Origin: Marinifilum caeruleilacunae
Lineage (GTDB): Bacteria > Bacteroidota > Bacteroidia > Bacteroidales > Marinifilaceae
Length of the DNA: 64,000 nt
Reading direction: 5' to 3'
Assembly (NCBI RefSeq): GCF_013141825.1
Contig: NZ_RZNH01000010.1
Coordinates: 1 to 64,000, forward strand
A program made the position numbers and the translations under genes. The notes beneath the pieces are model-generated. The model saw nothing but the letters and a program-made list of their open reading frames with translations. It did not search any database and was not told where the DNA came from. Shown here in pieces: positions 43,580 through 58,871 of this stretch; within the stretch, counting starts at the first letter, position 1; each line of letters begins with the position of its first letter.

Positions 43580-43610
43580 CAAATGTATCTATTTTTTAAT
43601 GAACATTCAA
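43580..43610 (-). promoter_or_regulatory. candidate promoter of galE
   Basis: On the minus strand TACATTTG (43580-43587) fits TAnnTTTG and TTG (43608-43610) lies about 20 bases upstream, inside the end of the GH109 gene. Transcripts would carry the 14-bp hairpin in their leader. Confidence 0.45.
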
Positions 43611-45080
43611 CTGTCCCTTCGAATCTGCTTTTTTCAGGTTACGAACGCTTGTACTTCCTGCCCCTTCCATACTCAAATCGATTGGTTTGTTTGTTTTCCA
43701 GGCTCCTCTTGTAAAATCAGGAATATCGATTGGGCGAGACTTGTTGGCGATAGACCATTCGCTCAATGGCGTGATACAACTCCATGCTGCAGCATCGTAT
43801 ACATCCATATCCATTGGCAACCCATTTCTTAAACAGTCAATCAATCTCCAGTCCATCACGAAATCCATTCCTCCATGGCCTCCAACTTGCTTGGCCATTT
43901 CTCCAACTCGACGGATAATTTCCGGCGTGTATTTATCCTGCAATTCTTTAAACTGCGCCTCATCAATTACGTTGTGCCCAAATGCGATGTGCTGTTTCGG
44001 CCATTTCTGTGCGAAACATTTGGTTCCACTCAACATGTGAATTCTTGAGTATGGGCGAGGCGAACTGATATCGTGCTGAATCATGATGGTTCTTCCCTTG
44101 TTGGTACGAATCATTTGCATGTCCATATTACCACGCATTTCCCATCCTACAAACTGCTCGAAGAACGGATCTTCCTGAGCCATCTCCTTAATTCTGTGCT
44201 TTAAGGTGAAATCATCAGACATCATCGCCGTAAGGTAATCCATTTTATCGCCCCGGTTAATATCCATTGCCTGGCAAATTGGACCCAAACCATGTGTTGG
44301 ATATACATTTGCCTTGCGTTTATTTTCGTGTAAGCGCCACATTTTTGTGTAAGCCCCATCGCTCATTTTATCATCTTTTGGCTTGTTGAAATGCCAGTAA
44401 TCCAAATCGTGGATGTATGCTCCTTCGCCATGAACCAAATCTCCAAATACCCCTTGTTGCGCCATGCTAATGGTCAACATCTCGAAGAAATCGTAGCAAC
44501 AGTTTTCAAGAATTACACAGTGCTTACGGGTTCTTTCCGAAGTTTCGACCATTTGCCAGCATTCATCCAATGTTTTTGCTGTTGATACCTCAACTGCTGT
44601 ATGCTTATCGCCTTCCATAGCAGCAATGGCAACAGGTACGTGCCATTCCCAAGGTGTAGCAATGTATACCAAATCAACATCACCACTTTCGCAAAGGGCT
44701 TTAAAACCCAAATCTCCATTTACATACTCTTTGGCTTTTGGCAAACCAGCATCGGAAAGAATTTTCTGAGCGCCATCAACAGCTGCCTGACGGATATCGC
44801 AAAGGGCTGTTACTTCAACTCCTTCGATATAGGTCATTCTTCTGACTGCCCCTGAACCACGATCTCCAATTCCCACAAATCCTACACGTACAGTTTCCAA
44901 TTTTGGAGCGGCATAACCACACATGTTGAAATTCATTTTTGGCAGTTTCCCAGCCAATTCTTTGATATGTGGTAGCGCACTTTCTTCCTTTGTTCCTGCA
45001 CACGATGCCAGCGGTGCAGCTGCAAGTACTCCGGCACCCAGGGCCAGGTTACTTAAAAATGATCTTCTGTTAGTTGCCAT
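43596..45080 (-). CDS. GH109-type Gfo/Idh/MocA protein, Tat-exported
   Basis: The 494-residue protein begins with a twin-arginine signal (NRRSFLSNLALGAG) and a possible lipobox (PLASC). The Rossmann fold follows (VGFVGIGDRGSGAV, ~66-79), then the GH109 region (YPTHGLGPICQAMDINRGD). GH109 enzymes such as alpha-N-acetylgalactosaminidase use a tightly bound NAD+ for transient oxidation. Export by Tat fits, since the cofactor binds before transport. In this locus it would release terminal alpha-GalNAc. It starts 118 bases after a terminator-like hairpin. Confidence 0.88.
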   Translation of the reverse strand: MATNRRSFLSNLALGAGVLAAAPLASCAGTKEESALPHIKELAGKLPKMNFNMCGYAAPKLETVRVGFVGIGDRGSGAVRRMTYIEGVEVTALCDIRQAAVDGAQKILSDAGLPKAKEYVNGDLGFKALCESGDVDLVYIATPWEWHVPVAIAAMEGDKHTAVEVSTAKTLDECWQMVETSERTRKHCVILENCCYDFFEMLTISMAQQGVFGDLVHGEGAYIHDLDYWHFNKPKDDKMSDGAYTKMWRLHENKRKANVYPTHGLGPICQAMDINRGDKMDYLTAMMSDDFTLKHRIKEMAQEDPFFEQFVGWEMRGNMDMQMIRTNKGRTIMIQHDISSPRPYSRIHMLSGTKCFAQKWPKQHIAFGHNVIDEAQFKELQDKYTPEIIRRVGEMAKQVGGHGGMDFVMDWRLIDCLRNGLPMDMDVYDAAAWSCITPLSEWSIANKSRPIDIPDFTRGAWKTNKPIDLSMEGAGSTSVRNLKKADSKGQLNVH

Positions 45081-51507: not shown

Positions 51508-52049
51508 TTTTCCTTAGATTAGTTATTAAAACGGGTTAAATGATTCTCATTTATCAAAACTTCTATAATACTTATCGGAACTTTTATAATATTTTTTAAA
51601 ACAATTATAGTCTACTTCATCGGTTCCGATCCTGAATCACTTCAAATTTGTAAAATCCCAACATGAATGAGGGGTAAATATTCTGCGATAAGGTGGAGAT
51701 TTTACTTTGGGATAAGATTTCTGAAATTGTCGGTTTTACAGTACACACAGCTTAAATAGTCCCCGTGCAGCACGATTAGGGTAATATAGAAGGCTCTAAA
51801 AAATCATTTCAACTTCATTTTTGACTTATTTTTTCTCTTTTCACCCATTTGGTGGATATTTTAAGCAATTGGGTGCACTTTTTCTGCATTCTACTAACAA
51901 CTAGGCAATTCCCTACCTGGGAATAGCAATTTAAATGTACCTTGTAATACTTTTTAAAAGTCTGCCCGAAAAAAGAGCACTTCAGGATTTGACAGGCTTT
52001 GCAGGGATACGTATTTTTGATAACAACTGAAGAAAGAGAAAGATTGATT
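51508..52049. other. divergent regulatory region between susC and the HTCS gene
   Basis: No gene is seen. Near susC lie two direct copies of a 16-base AT-rich element spaced 21 bases apart, partly coinciding with the 22-bp element shared with the ROK promoter. The short plus-strand frame preceding the HTCS start lacks a protein-like sequence. Confidence 0.65.
51558..51601. promoter_or_regulatory. candidate HTCS or ROK operator: tandem AT-rich repeats
   Basis: aacttctataatactt (51558-51573) and aacttttataatattt (51579-51594) match at 14 of 16 positions and are spaced 21 bp, two helical turns, as expected for AraC-type dimers. The second copy extends into the 22-bp identity with 39134-39155. 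The element lies 50-95 bases upstream of susC. Confidence 0.55.
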
Positions 52050-55000
52050 ATGTGCCTCATCAATAAATACAATTCTATCATTTTAGGTTTGATGTTACTC
52101 TTAACATCACTCCATGCATTGGCGGATGAAACCACAAATTTCATTCACATGCAAGCCAAGTTTGAAGGACAACAAACCAATGCAAACAATGTGGTTGAAG
52201 ATTCGAAAGGTTATCTTTGGATTGAATCCTATTCAGGTTTGATTCGCTACGATGGATATGATTTTGAACCAATCATCAACTCCAAAATATTCTCGCAAAA
52301 TGCGAATTCACAATCCTTATTTAAGTTGCTAAAGCAAAAAGATGAGAGCATTTGGGCTGTTTCCAGAAAAGGAGATATTTCAAAATTGCTTGAATCAGGT
52401 AAATTTCAGGATTACGCAGGTTCAAACATCAAACAAGGAGAGAATTTTCAGGTGCAGTCAGCGCACTTAACCGACACTACTATATGGATGGGCTCTAACA
52501 ATGGAGCTGTTATTGGTCAATCAATCGTGTCAAAATCCTTCATACAGTTTGACATCGAATCCGAGGAAGATATCACCTCCATCTCGCAAGACAATAGAAA
52601 CACAATTTGGTTCAGCACAAGCAGAGGGCGAATTTTTAAAGGCAATATCAAAAGCAAAGATCTGGAAGAAATCAAAGGCCCATTTAATAACCCGTTTAGC
52701 ACAATTATTCTGAGCACCGACAATAACAATAACCTTTGGATAGGAACAGAATTGTCTGGTTTCTTTTTCTACAATACAAAAAACGGTGAGTACATTGACT
52801 ATCGAGTAAGAAATGAGAAGCTTGACTTCGTACCTTCAAATATGATTATTCGGATTTTTAGAGATAGTCGTGGATTGATTTGGATGGGAACCGATGGCGG
52901 TGGTTTGTATAAAATAGATCCGAAAAGCAAGGAGGTGAAAAGATTCAACCATTCGAAAACCAACCGCTTTTCTCTTCAGAGTAAAACCATTATTGGCATA
53001 GGGGAAACCAACAACAAAGACATCTGGGTGTTTACCAATTATGGCAATATCAATATCATTCCAAATGAATCGAATACAGTTGGCTACCACAGTGGCAGCC
53101 TAGATGGCTCGCCAACAAGAGTTCTCTCCATACTCAAAGCCAAAGATGGAAAGCTCTGGATTGGAACCGATGGCGAAGGCCTAAGCATGCTTAATCGTAA
53201 AGGCGAAACCATTCAACAATTTATTGCCAACACAAAATCAGCCAAAGGCATTCCAGGCAACTACATTCAGGCCATAGCCGAAGATCAGAATGGGAATTTA
53301 TGGATTGGAACTTACCTAAATGGATTGGCTTTTTATAATCAGAAAGAGAATCGTTTTCGCCGGATTAAAACATCAAACAAATATGTACAAAATGGTAGCG
53401 ATATCCGATCGATTTACATTGATCGAAAAAATAGAATTTGGATTGGCAGCAATATCGGTTTATTCGTATTCAATACAGATGGTAGGCAGTTGGCCTACTT
53501 CCAACATAACAACCAGGATTTACAGGGCAGCATAGCCGAATTCTTTCTTGAAGACGAACTCGGTCAATTTTGGATTGGAATGTTTAATGGTGGAATCTGC
53601 TTGATGGAAGAAGCCGAAGATTTTCAGAATTCGAGGTTTATTACTTACAAGCTATCATCATCAAACAACATTTCGGAAAGTAGTGTTATTCACGGAACAA
53701 GCAATAATGATGGTTATTTGTACCTGGTAAACAGCTATTCGAAATTGGTGAAGTTCGATATAAAAAAGAAAGAAGTAGTGAGCATGTCTGGATTCACAGC
53801 TGATCAAATACATGGGTGTGTAGCTGTAATTTCAAGCGATCCAAACAATCTTTGGCTTTCCAAAAACAATGGAATAGCTCATCTGGATTTACAATCGAGA
53901 GAGGAATATTTTTACACCTGGAAAAATGGAACAATTAAAGGGAAATTCCTCTCTGGAAGTTCTTACCTTGATAAAAATGGCCTGATTTACTTTGGTGGCA
54001 TAGAGGGTGTCAATTATTTCAATCCCAACAACATGCAAACTCAGAAAAAGGATCTAAACCTGTATATCAACCATATGGAAATTGTGAATCGGGATGCCGA
54101 TGAAATTATTCCAGACCAACTCGTAAATGGAATTGAGCAAACCAGGCATTTGAAGCTGAATCACCATCAAACTTCATTCTCTTTTAAATTTGCCGTTGTT
54201 AACGATCACCTGGATCCCAATTACACCTACGCGTACCGATTGAAAGGTTTCAACCATAAGTGGATCAGTAGCACAAACAATCGAATTGCAACCTATACCA
54301 ATATCCCTTACGGTGATTATACTTTTGAAGTAAAGGCCGGAACAAAGCTCAACGATTGGAATATTGATGCAAAATCGATTGAACTAAGCATTTTGCCACC
54401 ATTTTGGAAAAGATGGTGGGCCTACACCATTTATGCCATCCTGTTTATTGTGATTGGCTTTTTTATTATCAGGTATTACCTGATGTGGGCAAGCTTGAAG
54501 AAAAAGCTATTGTTGGAAGAGTTACAAAACGAAAAAAACAAGGAATTGTATGCCATGAAAATGAATTTCTTTGCAAAAATGTCGCACGAAATTCAAACTC
54601 CGCTAACGCTCATTTTATCGCCTATCGATAATATGATTGAGCGGGCCGAAGGAAACCTTTTACTTTCGCAGCGTTTGCAGGTGATCAAAAACAATGCCAC
54701 CCGCCTGTCGCGCATTGCCATGGAACTTATGACTGTTCGGAACAAAGAGATGGGTAAATTGAAAATCCGAGCCAGCGAAAATAATGTGGTAAATCACCTG
54801 AACCAGGTAGCCCTTTCCTTTATGGAGCAAGCACGATTTAAGCAAATCGATTTAATCCTGGAAAGTGAATCGAAAAAGATGATGCTTTGGTACGATCGCC
54901 AAAAGCTGGAGCATATCATATACAACCTATTGGCAAATGCATTTAAGTTTACGCCACGCGATGGGAGAATTACACTGGCAATAAAAGAGGATATTTCGGC

Positions 55001-56144
55001 ACATAAGATATTAATTACAGTTTCGGATACCGGTATTGGCATTCCGAAATATGACCTTGAAAATATCTTTAATCTGTTTTATCAATCGAAAGATGGAAAG
55101 AGTGTGGGAGGAACCGGAATTGGTCTTGCACTCACCAAAGAACTCATCCTGCTGCACAAAGGCGATATTAAAGTAGCATCGGAAATCGACAAGGGAACAA
55201 GCTTCTCCATTTCGCTTCCATTGGGCAATAATCATTTTAAACAGGAAGAAATCCTTGTACAGGATATCGTTCAAAATAGAGAACCAGTTACAAAGCCTGA
55301 TTCTATTGCTGAAAAGGAAATAAAGGAAGAGATTGTAAATGATGCCGATAATTTGAAAAAAACTTTACTGATTGTTGAGGATAATTACGAAATGTTAATG
55401 TTTTTGGAAGATAGTTTCAAAGCTCATTACCAGGTGATGACCGCACAAAACGGACAGGAAGCGATTGATAAAATCAAAGATCTAAAACCTGATATTATTC
55501 TGAGCGATGTAATGATGCCAATTATGGACGGAATAAGCCTTTGCAAACATCTTAAAGAAAAACGATCGACCCGACATATTCCTATTATTTTGCTAACCAC
55601 CAAAAACGCTACTGCATCAAAGCTGGAAGGTCTTCAGTTTGGTGCAATCGAATATATAAACAAACCTTTCAATGTAAAGGAGCTTTTACTGAAAGTGAAT
55701 AACATCCTGGATGCTCAGCAAAAATTAATTGAGCAATACAGGTCGGAAGTACTAACCGAAAGTAAGGAGATTGAGGTAAAATCGCCAGATGAGAAATTCA
55801 TCGAATCAGTAATTGTTGAAATGGAACGAAATTTCGACAATCCTGATTTTAGACTGGAAGATTTGGCCGAACCATTAAACATGAGCTACTCCAATATTTA
55901 CCGAAAATTCCAATCCTTAACCGATAAAACCCTGGTTGATTTCATGCGTAATTTCCGTTTAAAAAAGGCCATTCCGCTTTTAACGCATCACAATTTTACC
56001 ATTTCGGAAATTGCCTACCAGGTTGGTTTTAACGATCCGAAGTATTTCTCGAAATGTTTCAAAAAGGAGTATGGACAAACACCAAAACAATACAAACAGC
56101 AAAACGAATCAAGAACCGATAAAACGATTGAAAATTCCCAATGA
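52050..56144 (+). CDS. hybrid two-component system sensor/regulator (HTCS)
   Basis: The ~1364-residue inner-membrane regulator carries all parts of a two-component system. Domains in order: signal peptide, two seven-bladed Reg_prop beta-propellers in the periplasm (WIGTDGEG-type blades), Y_Y_Y domain (~690-760), one membrane helix (~788-812), HisKA with phospho-His in KMSHEIQTPLTL (~843), HATPase (ANAFKFTPRDG), receiver with Asp in DIILSDVMMP (~1151), and AraC-type HTH (~1265-1364). It should sense an oligosaccharide and activate the divergent susCD run. The stop overlaps the next gene's start (ATGA). Confidence 0.95.
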   Translation: MCLINKYNSIILGLMLLLTSLHALADETTNFIHMQAKFEGQQTNANNVVEDSKGYLWIESYSGLIRYDGYDFEPIINSKIFSQNANSQSLFKLLKQKDESIWAVSRKGDISKLLESGKFQDYAGSNIKQGENFQVQSAHLTDTTIWMGSNNGAVIGQSIVSKSFIQFDIESEEDITSISQDNRNTIWFSTSRGRIFKGNIKSKDLEEIKGPFNNPFSTIILSTDNNNNLWIGTELSGFFFYNTKNGEYIDYRVRNEKLDFVPSNMIIRIFRDSRGLIWMGTDGGGLYKIDPKSKEVKRFNHSKTNRFSLQSKTIIGIGETNNKDIWVFTNYGNINIIPNESNTVGYHSGSLDGSPTRVLSILKAKDGKLWIGTDGEGLSMLNRKGETIQQFIANTKSAKGIPGNYIQAIAEDQNGNLWIGTYLNGLAFYNQKENRFRRIKTSNKYVQNGSDIRSIYIDRKNRIWIGSNIGLFVFNTDGRQLAYFQHNNQDLQGSIAEFFLEDELGQFWIGMFNGGICLMEEAEDFQNSRFITYKLSSSNNISESSVIHGTSNNDGYLYLVNSYSKLVKFDIKKKEVVSMSGFTADQIHGCVAVISSDPNNLWLSKNNGIAHLDLQSREEYFYTWKNGTIKGKFLSGSSYLDKNGLIYFGGIEGVNYFNPNNMQTQKKDLNLYINHMEIVNRDADEIIPDQLVNGIEQTRHLKLNHHQTSFSFKFAVVNDHLDPNYTYAYRLKGFNHKWISSTNNRIATYTNIPYGDYTFEVKAGTKLNDWNIDAKSIELSILPPFWKRWWAYTIYAILFIVIGFFIIRYYLMWASLKKKLLLEELQNEKNKELYAMKMNFFAKMSHEIQTPLTLILSPIDNMIERAEGNLLLSQRLQVIKNNATRLSRIAMELMTVRNKEMGKLKIRASENNVVNHLNQVALSFMEQARFKQIDLILESESKKMMLWYDRQKLEHIIYNLLANAFKFTPRDGRITLAIKEDISAHKILITVSDTGIGIPKYDLENIFNLFYQSKDGKSVGGTGIGLALTKELILLHKGDIKVASEIDKGTSFSISLPLGNNHFKQEEILVQDIVQNREPVTKPDSIAEKEIKEEIVNDADNLKKTLLIVEDNYEMLMFLEDSFKAHYQVMTAQNGQEAIDKIKDLKPDIILSDVMMPIMDGISLCKHLKEKRSTRHIPIILLTTKNATASKLEGLQFGAIEYINKPFNVKELLLKVNNILDAQQKLIEQYRSEVLTESKEIEVKSPDEKFIESVIVEMERNFDNPDFRLEDLAEPLNMSYSNIYRKFQSLTDKTLVDFMRNFRLKKAIPLLTHHNFTISEIAYQVGFNDPKYFSKCFKKEYGQTPKQYKQQNESRTDKTIENSQ

Positions 56145-57529
56145 GTAAGTTAAAGAAATACAAATTCCCATTATTGATTCTGATTGCGTTCCTGTTTGCT
56201 TTTCTGTTTACATCTGGCTTAAAAGGCGTTGATAATTACACTTCCAAAGATGAATATTGCATGTCGTGTCATGTTCATACCGAAGCCGATAATTCCTGGA
56301 AGTATGCGAGTCATTACAACAACAAAAGTGGCGTAGTTGTGCATTGTGTCGATTGCCATTTGCCTCCTAAAAGTCACAGCAGTTACTGGCCACAGAAATT
56401 AAAGGCTGCTTCAAAAGATGTATATTCTTTCTATTTCAAGGATCATTCCGAAATCAATTGGAATGAGAAATCGAAGGCAAAACAGGCCAAAAACTTCACT
56501 TACAATGAATCATGTACCAACTGCCATGATAACTTATTTCCCCTACATCTTTCTAAAAAGGGCGATAAGGCCCACCTTTACTACAAAAACAACAAGGAAA
56601 AACTGGATTGCATCAACTGTCATTTAGATGTTGGGCATGGCGGAAAGAAAATGCATAAGCCTAATCAAATGTTTATGCGAAAAGTGAAGTCGGATGAGCT
56701 ATTTACGAGCTCAACAAGAGTATCGAAATTCGAAAATTTCACAGAACAAATCCCAGGAACAGATGTCTCATTTGATCTAATGGCCATTCCAGCTACCGAT
56801 TCTATCCCCCGTTTTTTTATGGGGAAAATTGAAGTTTCATGGAACGAATACAAAGCCTTTCTGGCCGAAACCGAATCGGAAGGAAGAGTAGAAAAGAACA
56901 CAGAAGATCTTGATGCCATAAGTGGCGCAACACCTCCTTTCGGAGATCCTTCACAGGCATGGGGCATGGGAAAAAGACCAGCCATTACAATGACCTGGCA
57001 TGCTGCCAACATCTATTGCAAATGGTTGTCTGAAAAAACGGGAAAAACCTATCGCCTTCCTACACAAAAAGAGTGGATGTATGCCTGCAATGCCAATGGC
57101 AAAGAAGATTTTTTCTTTGGTGGTAGTTTAAAAAATTACAAGCAGAAAAACTTTCCGATGAACCTATTCAAGCAAGCAAATGAAAGGATTAATGAATATG
57201 TGATCTGGATGGTGAACAGTGAAGAAAAAACCGCTCTTCCCGATCGAGTAAAGGCCAATCCTTTTGGTTTGCTCCACATGCTGGGCAATGTGAAAGAGTT
57301 TTGTTCCGATCAAATCACGGTAAATGGAAAAACAGAACATGTTCTTATGGGCGGATCATTCAACAGTGAGTTAAAAGACTTACGATACAACAAAACAGAT
57401 CACACCCAACACGATGCATGGATGCTAACAGATCCTCAAATTCCGAAAAGCATATGGTGGTATTCCGATTGTACCGATGTTGGATTCAGAGTCGTTTGCG
57501 AATTTCCTAAAATCAAGAGTCATGAATAA
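56141..57529 (+). CDS. tetraheme NapC/NrfH-like cytochrome fused to FGE-like domain
   Basis: The 462-residue membrane-anchored protein has one N-terminal helix (~6-26), then four CxxCH heme motifs (C40-H44, C69-H73, C125-H129, C157-H161), as in quinol-oxidising NapC/NrfH-type cytochromes. Residues ~190-455 form an FGE/SUMF1-like domain with RLPTQKEW, LGNVKEFCSD, MGGSF and DVGFRVVCE. The two catalytic cysteines that follow GGS[WFY] in true formylglycine enzymes are absent (GGSFNSELKDLRY), so FGE activity is unlikely. The start overlaps the HTCS stop by four bases, and the stop overlaps the next gene. The periplasmic partner is unknown. Confidence 0.85.
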   Translation: MSKLKKYKFPLLILIAFLFAFLFTSGLKGVDNYTSKDEYCMSCHVHTEADNSWKYASHYNNKSGVVVHCVDCHLPPKSHSSYWPQKLKAASKDVYSFYFKDHSEINWNEKSKAKQAKNFTYNESCTNCHDNLFPLHLSKKGDKAHLYYKNNKEKLDCINCHLDVGHGGKKMHKPNQMFMRKVKSDELFTSSTRVSKFENFTEQIPGTDVSFDLMAIPATDSIPRFFMGKIEVSWNEYKAFLAETESEGRVEKNTEDLDAISGATPPFGDPSQAWGMGKRPAITMTWHAANIYCKWLSEKTGKTYRLPTQKEWMYACNANGKEDFFFGGSLKNYKQKNFPMNLFKQANERINEYVIWMVNSEEKTALPDRVKANPFGLLHMLGNVKEFCSDQITVNGKTEHVLMGGSFNSELKDLRYNKTDHTQHDAWMLTDPQIPKSIWWYSDCTDVGFRVVCEFPKIKSHE

Positions 57530-58871
57530 ATCATACGAACAGAGTCGCAGAAAATTTATCCGTAATGCAGCCGCTGCAGGCATTATTGGTGCTGTTAGTT
57601 TCAACTCCATTTTTACTTCGTGCAGACAGTCCAATCAAAAAGATTATCGTTTTCCTACCATGCTTCCACAAGCTCCTGACGGACCACTTTTAAAAGCCGG
57701 AATTGTAGGTTGTGGTTATCGTGGAACCGGCGCAGCCCTCAACTTTCTAAATGCCGGTCCTAATTTGGAAATTGCTGCTCTGGCCGATGTTTTTCAAGAT
57801 CGGGTTGAAGCCTGCCGCAAACAGATTCTGGAACAAAAAAATGTTGAGGTTCCTAAAGACAATTGCTTTGTTGGCATTGATTCTTTTGAGAAGTTAATGG
57901 AATGCGATCTGGATGTGGTCATCCTGGCTACTCCTCCTCACTTTCGACCACAACATTTCGAAGCATGTGTAAAAGCACAAAAGCATGTTTTCATGGAAAA
58001 GCCTGTAGCTGTTGATCCTGTTGGAGTACGTTCGGTAATGGTATCGGCCGAAAAAGCAAAAATGCTTGGTTTATCCGTTGTAACGGGAACCATTAAACGC
58101 CATCAGCAAGACTATATCGAAACTTTTAAGCAGGTAAATCGGGGTGCTATTGGCGAGATTGTTTCGGCTAACAGTTACTACAATGTAGGCAAATTATGGC
58201 ATCGAAACCCACGTGCCGACTGGTCTGAATTGGAAAACATGATTCGCAACTGGGTGAATTGGTGCTGGCTATCGGGCGATCATATTGTGGAGCAACACGT
58301 TCACAACCTGGATACCATCAACTGGTTTGTTGGCAAACATCCCGTGAAAGCTTTGGGCTTTGGTGCACGCCATCAAAGGGTCTCAGGTGATCAATACGAC
58401 ATGTTTAGTGTCGATTTTGTGTACGATAACGACATTCATTACCACAGCATGTGCCGTCAAATTAACGAGTGCTCAAACTCCGTTTCCGATCGAATACAGG
58501 GAACAGAAGGTTTCACCAATTGCGAAAACAGCATTTATGAATTGGATGGTTCATTAAAATGGTCATTCGATTACCCAAAGAAAGGAAGTGGTAAGAACAT
58601 CAGCCGATTGGCCACGAACCCATTCGATCAGGAACACATCGATTTGGTAACAGCAATTCGAACCAGAAAACCTGTTAACGAAGCCTTCCAGATTGCAGAA
58701 TCGAGCATGACTGGAATTATGGGAAGAGTTTCGGCATACACAGGCAAAGAAGTGAGCTGGGATGAGATGATAAATTCGGATTTGTATTTGGGACCAAAAA
58801 CTTATGATATCGGCCCTGTTGACATCTCCAAAGAGATAGCCAAACCCGGAAAAGCTCCTGTGCAAAAATAA
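57522..58871 (+). CDS. second exported Gfo/Idh/MocA oxidoreductase
   Basis: The 449-residue protein carries a twin-arginine signal (SRRKFIRNAAAAGIIG) ending in a possible lipobox (IFTSC). The Rossmann fold (AGIVGCGYRGTGAA, ~60-73) has the EKP motif (FMEKPVAV, ~160) and the C-terminal Gfo/Idh domain includes HIVEQHVHNLDTINW. It is not closely similar to the GH109 protein at 43596 and could be a sugar dehydrogenase or an NAD-dependent glycosidase. The ATG at 57522 overlaps the cytochrome gene stop by eight bases, indicating translational coupling. Confidence 0.87.
   Translation: MNKSYEQSRRKFIRNAAAAGIIGAVSFNSIFTSCRQSNQKDYRFPTMLPQAPDGPLLKAGIVGCGYRGTGAALNFLNAGPNLEIAALADVFQDRVEACRKQILEQKNVEVPKDNCFVGIDSFEKLMECDLDVVILATPPHFRPQHFEACVKAQKHVFMEKPVAVDPVGVRSVMVSAEKAKMLGLSVVTGTIKRHQQDYIETFKQVNRGAIGEIVSANSYYNVGKLWHRNPRADWSELENMIRNWVNWCWLSGDHIVEQHVHNLDTINWFVGKHPVKALGFGARHQRVSGDQYDMFSVDFVYDNDIHYHSMCRQINECSNSVSDRIQGTEGFTNCENSIYELDGSLKWSFDYPKKGSGKNISRLATNPFDQEHIDLVTAIRTRKPVNEAFQIAESSMTGIMGRVSAYTGKEVSWDEMINSDLYLGPKTYDIGPVDISKEIAKPGKAPVQK

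Follow-up and report, generated by a model that had tools for sequence, protein, structure and literature searches.

Introduction

LacABC, together with DUF1080 proteins, provides a working precedent for the periplasmic oxidation of glycosides at the membrane, as described in the part of PMC9007349 that deals with it. In covalently flavinylated proteins, ApbE places flavin mononucleotide (FMN) on the last residue of the motif D-x-x-[S/T]-G-A-[S/T]; the portion of PMC12052999 that treats this motif reports that changing its G to A or its A to V leaves about half of the reaction, and that changing its D to A has little effect. The present analysis concerns a 64,000-nucleotide stretch of the Marinifilum caeruleilacunae genome (contig NZ_RZNH01000010.1, positions 1 to 64,000; hereafter the window), in which a gene for a tetraheme cytochrome fused to an FGE-like domain is followed by a gene for an exported Gfo/Idh/MocA oxidoreductase (hereafter Gfo). 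Many Gfo/Idh/MocA enzymes are exported to places where we know of no NAD(P) pool that could re-oxidise them. Gene pairing and co-occurrence support well that the fusion and the Gfo are partners, and it is estimated, with a probability of about 0.5, that the pair consists of an electron-transfer arm and a periplasmic sugar dehydrogenase.

Pairing of the fusion and the Gfo across genomes

The fusion gene (462 codons; 56141..57529, forward strand) was delimited from its open reading frame (ORF), Pfam matches and a scan for CxxCH heme motifs. When 393 genomes of the order were searched, with a fusion hit defined as E <= 1e-20 and at most four candidates scored per genome, the fusion was recovered from 53, the Gfo from 52 and both from 51. 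The 53 include one genome with an FGE hit only (G428) and one (G209) whose match is a cytochrome at the end of a contig. Within the window's own family, 39 of 57 genomes match at E <= 0.001, and a count by eye gives 20 that carry the fusion.

The neighbourhood of the fusion was examined in 85 loci. The order search contributed 80 fetched regions, and a profile search of named genomes supplied 8 of the 85 loci. Two loci that lack the FGE part at contig ends (L139, L140) stand outside the 85; contig-end loci such as L088, L127 and L141 were kept, and in these three the contig end cuts the fusion, which leaves it with fewer than four CxxCH motifs. By six-frame profile count, 83 of the 85 loci have a Gfo of the window's type no more than 5 kb from the fusion; the exceptions are L137 and L104, and in the genome of the latter a Gfo follows at a distance of about 9 kb. 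Of the 78 loci that have a fusion ORF (two of them contig ends), 71 have the Gfo ORF as the next gene downstream in the same orientation; ORF-based neighbour counts are too low in G+C-rich loci, and six-frame counts were used in their place. A chance neighbourhood of the two genes is rejected by the 83 of 85 count. An earlier sequence-only reading proposed that they form one module and would have been refuted by fusions mostly without a Gfo neighbour; this count and the 51 shared genomes support the proposal. In two loci (L121, L123) the usual pair is rearranged, with the Gfo beside the fusion in the opposite orientation, and at one site (G224:C37; L034, L083) an in-frame TAA was counted within the fusion match.

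A single fusion can accompany several Gfo proteins: at least four copies occur with one fusion in G094, G372, G390 and G324, and at least three in G070 and G231. These extra copies are mostly on other contigs, and a fusion was found beside none of the nine that were fetched. Two module types, X and Y, co-occur in some genomes (69 pairs in which both proteins exceed 400 aa). Type X proteins resemble each other across genomes (0.74 for the FGE domain and 0.78 for the Gfo) more than they resemble those of type Y in the same genomes (0.62 and 0.54); judged from these comparisons, co-inheritance of FGE domain and Gfo appears clear for type X and weak for type Y. The distance correlation over the 69 pairs was 0.57 between FGE domain and Gfo and 0.74 between cytochrome and Gfo, values that species history alone may explain.

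The Gfo/Idh/MocA partner

The Gfo gene (449 codons; 57522..58871, forward strand; Pfam and alignment) encodes a probable lipoprotein exported by the twin-arginine translocation (Tat) route. Its signal region, from SRRKFI to SIFTSC (57522..57623, forward strand), was recognised by sequence and alignment. Across 23 homologues, R9 and R10 of the Tat motif SRRKFI, E159-K160-P161, H259, H261 and D264 are all invariant. Its ATG at 57522 precedes the fusion stop codon at 57527-57529, giving an overlap of 8 bases; both the Tat signal and the overlapping start noted in the sequence-only reading are confirmed. A Rossmann domain, a C-terminal domain and the lysine of the EKP motif, seen by Pfam, alignment and structure comparison, place the protein in the Gfo/Idh/MocA family. 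The structure model (predicted local distance difference test score, pLDDT, 85) lies nearest to YjhC, RgNanOx, inositol dehydrogenases and aldose-aldose oxidoreductase, with glucose-fructose oxidoreductase further down.

Against the model for the glycoside 3-dehydrogenase BT_2158 the Gfo scores 25.2 of the 750 bits required, which places it outside that equivalog; because this score is so far below the cut-off, 3-oxidation by the window Gfo is a guess. A hydrolytic role of the GH109 type was rejected, since the protein matches no GH109 model at E <= 1 and the window holds a separate GH109 gene. The product of the latter (43596-45080) is a Gfo-fold protein with a Glyco_hydro_109_C domain and a twin-arginine start; the two proteins share a fold and both appear to be exported, and their chemistry is probably different.

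Xylose-isomerase-like TIM barrels neighbour 30 of the 85 fusion loci. Two TIM-barrel neighbours match keto-sugar epimerases and isomerases with scores below cut-off. The DUF1080 (3-keto-disaccharide hydrolase) label was obtained in three fetched loci, by Pfam in L155 and with our own single-sequence profile in L253 and L110. The sequence-only reading had left the choice between sugar oxidation and NAD-dependent glycoside cleavage; cleavage found no support, and the keto-sugar-type neighbours (TIM barrels and DUF1080) fit oxidation better. In eight loci of one fusion-module type (L076, L085, L086, L087, L090, L100, L105, L133) a second, distant Gfo comes directly after the first, followed in six of the eight by a ThuA-type protein; the best NCBIfam score of the second Gfo in L090 is with BT_2158, below cut-off.

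The tetraheme cytochrome part of the fusion

The N-terminal part of the fusion is a NapC/NrfH-type cytochrome domain (residues 6-167; 56156..56641, forward strand, as are all features of the fusion) identified by Pfam (PF03264, Cytochrom_NNT, E 4.4e-29, above cut-off), alignment and profile match. The structure model has a single N-terminal membrane helix (residues 8-33; 56162..56239), which is followed by four heme motifs at residues 40, 69, 125 and 157: CMSCH (56258..56272, also seen in the alignment), CVDCH (56345..56359), CTNCH (56513..56527) and CINCH (56609..56623). No CxxCH occurs in the 43 other script-kept ORFs of at least 100 aa in the window, and a chance origin of the four was rejected, as none of 20,000 shuffles of the fusion protein gave four. 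The single helix, the four motifs and the Cytochrom_NNT match above cut-off together place the domain in the NapC/NrfH family, and the ORF, Pfam, structure model and cysteine scan agree with the sequence-only reading on the helix, the hemes and the FGE-like domain that lacks both catalytic cysteines.

A profile match to Desulfovibrio NrfH (2j7a_C) had an E value of 2e-8. Residues H46, K86 and D93 are invariant in all 16 aligned sequences; K86 and D93 align with a lysine and an aspartate of NrfH that we take to be residues of the quinol pocket. After heme motif 1 the fusion has V-H46 where the aligned NrfH reads I-M, and H46 thereby stands in the place of the methionine that is presumably the heme-1 ligand of NrfH. 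The NCBIfam cut-offs were missed both for NrfH, with 78.4 bits against 134.2, and for NapC/NirT, with 63.9 bits against 310.6. The genome has a single NrfA match, on another contig, with a separate NrfH-like match about 0.3 kb away from it, and the 64-kb window holds no other heme protein. The fusion, being below the equivalog cut-off and not adjacent to NrfA, thus falls outside the NrfA-partnering NrfH proteins; an NrfHA partnership was rejected from the position of the NrfA match beside its own NrfH-like match, and the earlier statement that no NrfA-type reductase is nearby is correct. A link of the fusion to the quinone pool is plausible from its NrfH-type domain.

The FGE-like domain

The C-terminal part has the FGE/SUMF1 fold (approximately residues 199-457; 56735..57511), a conserved TDPQxPKSxWW signature and no FGE cysteine pair, as judged by Pfam, conservation and Foldseek. 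Pfam FGE-sulfatase covers residues 219-407 (E 2.6e-23), the top-ranked Foldseek matches are TvpA, PvdO and FGE, and the fold is thus that of FGE without its catalytic cysteines. Residues 389-443, which we take to be the stretch that holds the two cysteines of FGE, contain no cysteine in the window protein. Structure-entry titles name the FGE cysteines as C336 and C341, five apart. One cysteine within residues 404-430, mostly at position 416, is present in 22 of 85 fusions and in 25 of 60 relatives without NrfH hemes; a C-x4-C pair is present in none of the 85 or the 60, and therefore none of these proteins looks like a working FGE. The PvdO model was matched below cut-off by the window protein (E 2.4e-12) and by two relatives, L155 (4.8e-24) and L164 (1.2e-30).

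Within this domain, D258-A-I-S-G-A-T264 (56912..56932) is an exact ApbE motif by sequence, with T264 as the putative FMN site; the window protein is thus an exported protein with a flavinylation motif, and no ApbE gene lies in its cluster. Position 264 is T in all 85 fusion sequences (84 loci and the window) and T or S in all 60 relatives, and position 258 is D in all 85 fusions and in 57 of the relatives, the other three having E. G262 is present in 85 of 85 fusions vs 4 of 60 relatives, in which R is commonest (37). The segment of residues 247-265 has pLDDT < 50 in a domain whose core exceeds 90.

The relaxed pattern D-x-x-[ST]-G-[AP]-[ST] is unique to the fusion among the 44 window ORFs. 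In the fetched loci it occurs in 85 of 181 FGE-labelled ORFs vs 4 of 1977 other ORFs, and the strict form with G-A in 34 of 181 vs 3 of 1977; among the fusion ORFs of other loci, 32 of 84 have the strict motif and 79 of 84 the [AP] form. The strict motif was found in no kept ORF of the 29 loci with an ApbE-labelled ORF. In the 29 loci with ApbE by six-frame search, the shorter pattern [ST]GA[ST] had 11 matches, four of them in Gfo (signal or Rossmann region), two in ApbE and five in unlabelled ORFs from five different loci, and it recurred in no other candidate family of these loci. These two scans of ApbE loci used picked ORFs, and genes in G+C-rich loci can be missed.

FGE relatives without NrfH hemes

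The profile search of named genomes, from which the best 80 of 343 matches were taken, gave the 8 further fusions mentioned above, distant FGE proteins, and FGE relatives without NrfH hemes from Bacteroidota, Verrucomicrobia, Planctomycetes and others. A Bacteroidota set added 31 sites from 29 of 247 genomes (32 sites were found, and the partial G663 was left out). The 65 loci of this subfamily without NrfH hemes are the named-genome relatives and these 31 sites. They were compared with 38 distant FGE loci (L184-L221), which are lower-scoring matches of the same search and not a random sample of FGE proteins.

By six-frame search, 48 of the 65 loci vs 0 of the 38 controls have a Gfo of the window's subfamily within 5 kb, and 21 of 65 vs 0 of 38 have a xylose-isomerase-like TIM barrel. 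The FGE-Gfo pair therefore extends beyond the cytochrome: in Bacteroidota and in the Planctomycetes-Verrucomicrobia-Chlamydiae (PVC) bacteria, FGE relatives that carry no heme also adjoin a Gfo of this subfamily. ApbE lies within 5 kb in 29 of the 65 (14 of 34 and 15 of 31) vs 0 of 38 controls, an excess with a Fisher p of 1.1e-7 among loci that are not independent; its identity was confirmed by Pfam on five genes. ApbE serves other systems too.

Heme domains of the PSCyt1 type are fused to the FGE domain in L150, L160, L164 and L170, an arrangement present in some Verrucomicrobia; in L160 the Gfo comes next, and in L164 and L170 ApbE adjoins. The FGE subfamily thus goes with redox parts of three kinds, namely NrfH-type hemes, PSCyt1 hemes and a flavin transferase. 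The sequence-only reading took the FGE-like domain to be a docking or glycan-binding part, a role that it may still have; the ApbE neighbours, the PSCyt1 fusions and the exact motif suggest instead a redox, FMN-carrying part.

A second context of the same FGE proteins was seen in L158, L175, L258 and L265, which have no Gfo nearby. A YceI-type gene (Pfam, on L158 only) follows the FGE-subfamily gene in all four, ApbE comes next in L158, L175 and L265, and a further protein of about 780 aa with two CxxCH motifs is present in L158, L258 and L265.

A model for the fusion-Gfo pair and its alternatives

The model to which a probability of about 0.5 was given above would work as follows. The Gfo, exported in folded form by Tat, would oxidise a hydroxyl group of a sugar or glycoside, most likely one derived from a glycan, with its own NAD(P), and the helix-anchored fusion would take the electrons and pass them through its four hemes to menaquinone. 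The FGE-like domain would couple the two; in its most complete form the model gives this domain a covalent FMN, attached by ApbE at T264, that bridges the two-electron chemistry of NAD(P)H and the one-electron hemes. Transfer from NAD(P)H through flavin and heme to menaquinone is downhill, and the reverse is not. In favour of the model count the Gfo pairing and co-occurrence, the extra Gfo copies in genomes with one fusion, the Gfo and ApbE neighbours of the relatives without NrfH hemes, the PSCyt1 fusions, the exact motif and its rarity in other ORFs, the TIM-barrel neighbours, the likeness among type X modules, and the two ApbE genes that the window's own genome has outside the fusion cluster. 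Physical contact of the two proteins, the use of NAD(P), the attachment of FMN, the direction of flow to quinone and the class of substrate are all inferred. FMN on T264 is a tentative proposal, to which we give somewhat worse than even odds. A wider proposal is put forward with slightly more reserve: throughout Bacteroidota and PVC bacteria, a family of periplasmic Gfo/Idh/MocA sugar dehydrogenases that contain a nicotinamide might be re-oxidised by a common partner, an FGE fold that has become a covalent-FMN carrier through ApbE at the threonine of the SGAT loop and that occurs alone or joined to hemes of the NrfH or PSCyt1 type.

Several observations count against this model. Two genomes have a fusion-query or FGE hit without a Gfo (G209, G428) and one has the Gfo without the fusion (G215), and the type Y modules gave across-genome values of 0.63 for the FGE domain, hardly above the 0.62 between types, and 0.65 for the Gfo. 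The structure model of the cytochrome part, mostly at pLDDT < 50, is too unreliable to give a distance from heme to T264. Residue 263 is P in 47 of the 85 fusions and A in 38. The main weakness lies in the FGE proteins adjacent to ApbE, most of which have D[AT][VI]T[RK]P[TS] at this site, with neither the G nor the A that the ApbE motif contains, and the conserved D and T/S may be structural. ApbE was found within 5 kb of none of the 85 fusion loci by six-frame search. Six of the non-NrfH loci have ApbE and no Gfo within 5 kb; ApbE therefore tracks the FGE protein and not the FGE-Gfo pair.

The near-exclusive distribution of ApbE, near 29 of the 65 non-NrfH loci vs none of the 85 NrfH-fused ones, would also be expected if heme had replaced flavin: other lineages would use an ApbE-dependent flavoprotein and Bacteroidales a fused tetraheme cytochrome, T264 would be bare, and the FGE-like domain would only dock the Gfo. 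The GPT that stands in place of GAT in 47 of 85 fusions fits this explanation; G262, in all fusions vs 4 of 60 relatives, makes the motif more ApbE-like exactly in the fusions, and the PSCyt1-fused L164 and L170 adjoin ApbE despite their hemes, and on balance the replacement is considered doubtful. A reversed, reductive or repair flow, in which electrons from menaquinol would leave by way of the fusion and either reduce a keto-sugar or restore the nicotinamide that the Gfo binds, is suggested by the usual oxidation of menaquinol by NapC/NrfH cytochromes and by the single fusion per genome that can accompany several Gfo proteins. Electron flow from menaquinol to NADH is uphill, however, the GH20, GH2 and SusCD neighbours in the window look catabolic, and this direction is judged improbable.

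About as improbable, or slightly more so, is that the FGE-like domain is itself an enzyme, PvdO- or EgtB-like, that acts on a glycan or small molecule and is fed by the hemes. Its nearest folds (TvpA, PvdO and FGE) and the sub-threshold PvdO matches of the window protein, L155 and L164 would suit such an enzyme, but the domain is coupled in genomes to the Gfo and ApbE, and no constant third gene for a substrate was seen in the loci. That the genes are merely part of an ordinary polysaccharide utilisation locus, co-regulated with the glycan genes and without joint action, would account for the hybrid two-component regulator and SusCD nearby in the window's family; it is strongly disfavoured by the Gfo pairing (83 of 85) and the 51 shared genomes of 393, and as the pair is also kept in other phyla and in many loci without regulator or SusCD labels, this explanation has very little probability.

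If the electron-transfer model is true, a dedicated and widely inherited electron partner would explain the turnover of exported Gfo/Idh/MocA enzymes, glycan breakdown in Bacteroidota would be tied directly to respiration, and a function would be found for proteins that match only the FGE-sulfatase family.

Gene context in the window

A hybrid two-component regulator (52047..56144, forward strand; Reg_prop, Y_Y_Y, HisKA, HATPase, receiver and AraC HTH domains by Pfam) precedes the fusion, whose start codon overlaps the regulator stop in the ATGA at 56141-56144, an overlap absent from the sequence-only reading. Because the starts and stops of regulator, fusion and Gfo overlap, the three look like one transcription unit. 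Of the 78 loci with a fusion ORF, 14 have a gene for such a hybrid regulator immediately upstream in the same orientation. A Pfam and ORF survey of the window found, divergent from the trio, genes for SusC/SusD, DUF5077/DUF3472, GH109, GH2, a nucleotidyl transferase and an APH-type kinase, and also for a glucosamine-isomerase-like protein, a CBM9 protein, ROK and GH20; the set reads like one for the use of amino-sugar and galactose glycans.

A 788-aa protein at 31896-34262 matches glucosamine isomerase weakly and below cut-off in residues 203-325, with its remaining residues matching nothing, and is possibly a two-domain amino-sugar enzyme. The minus strand carries another glycan locus (4882-26596), which was named by eye from its ORF sequences, resembles an alginate utilisation locus and comprises sugar kinases, a KDPG aldolase-like protein, SDR and MFS proteins, two GntR-type regulators, SusC/SusD and secreted lyase-like proteins.

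Comparison with known systems

Literature searches, which drew mostly on top-ranked results and openly readable papers, returned no description of the fusion-Gfo module. Text searches of two flavinylation surveys found no FGE, Gfo, sulfatase or NapC in PMC8238504 and no FGE, Gfo, sulfatase or NrfH in PMC11334425, and the FGE-Gfo pair is not described in the parts of PMC10434189 and PMC5673643 that were consulted.

The fusion resembles the NrfH/NapC tetraheme quinol dehydrogenases in its one helix, four CxxCH motifs, NrfH profile match and aligned K86 and D93; it differs in its C-terminal FGE domain, in H46 in place of Met, in a Gfo neighbour instead of NrfA and in scores below the family cut-offs. 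With FGE/SUMF1, PvdO and GldK it shares the fold and Pfam FGE-sulfatase, and it differs from them in lacking the FGE cysteine pair and in having the [ST]G[AP]T loop and the TDPQxPKSxWW signature. The ApbE-flavinylated carriers (for example NqrC, NosR, PplA, DUF2271 and DUF3570) are likewise exported and carry the exact motif, and ApbE adjoins the relatives of the fusion; the FGE fold sets the fusion apart from these carriers, and its flavinylation is a prediction from sequence.

The 3-keto-glycoside enzymes BT2156-2158 also combine Gfo/Idh/MocA proteins with sugar isomerase and DUF1080 neighbours (PMC10434189, in the passage on these enzymes), whereas the window Gfo reaches 25.2 of 750 bits with the BT_2158 model and that passage gives them no cytochrome or FGE partner. 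LacA, by comparison, is a GMC flavoprotein, and the dehydrogenase here is a Gfo/Idh/MocA protein. What the LacABC and glucoside 3-dehydrogenase systems have in common with the present module is membrane-linked oxidation of glycosides, described for them in the relevant part of PMC9007349 and proposed here, and DUF1080 neighbours, as in L155, L253 and L110.

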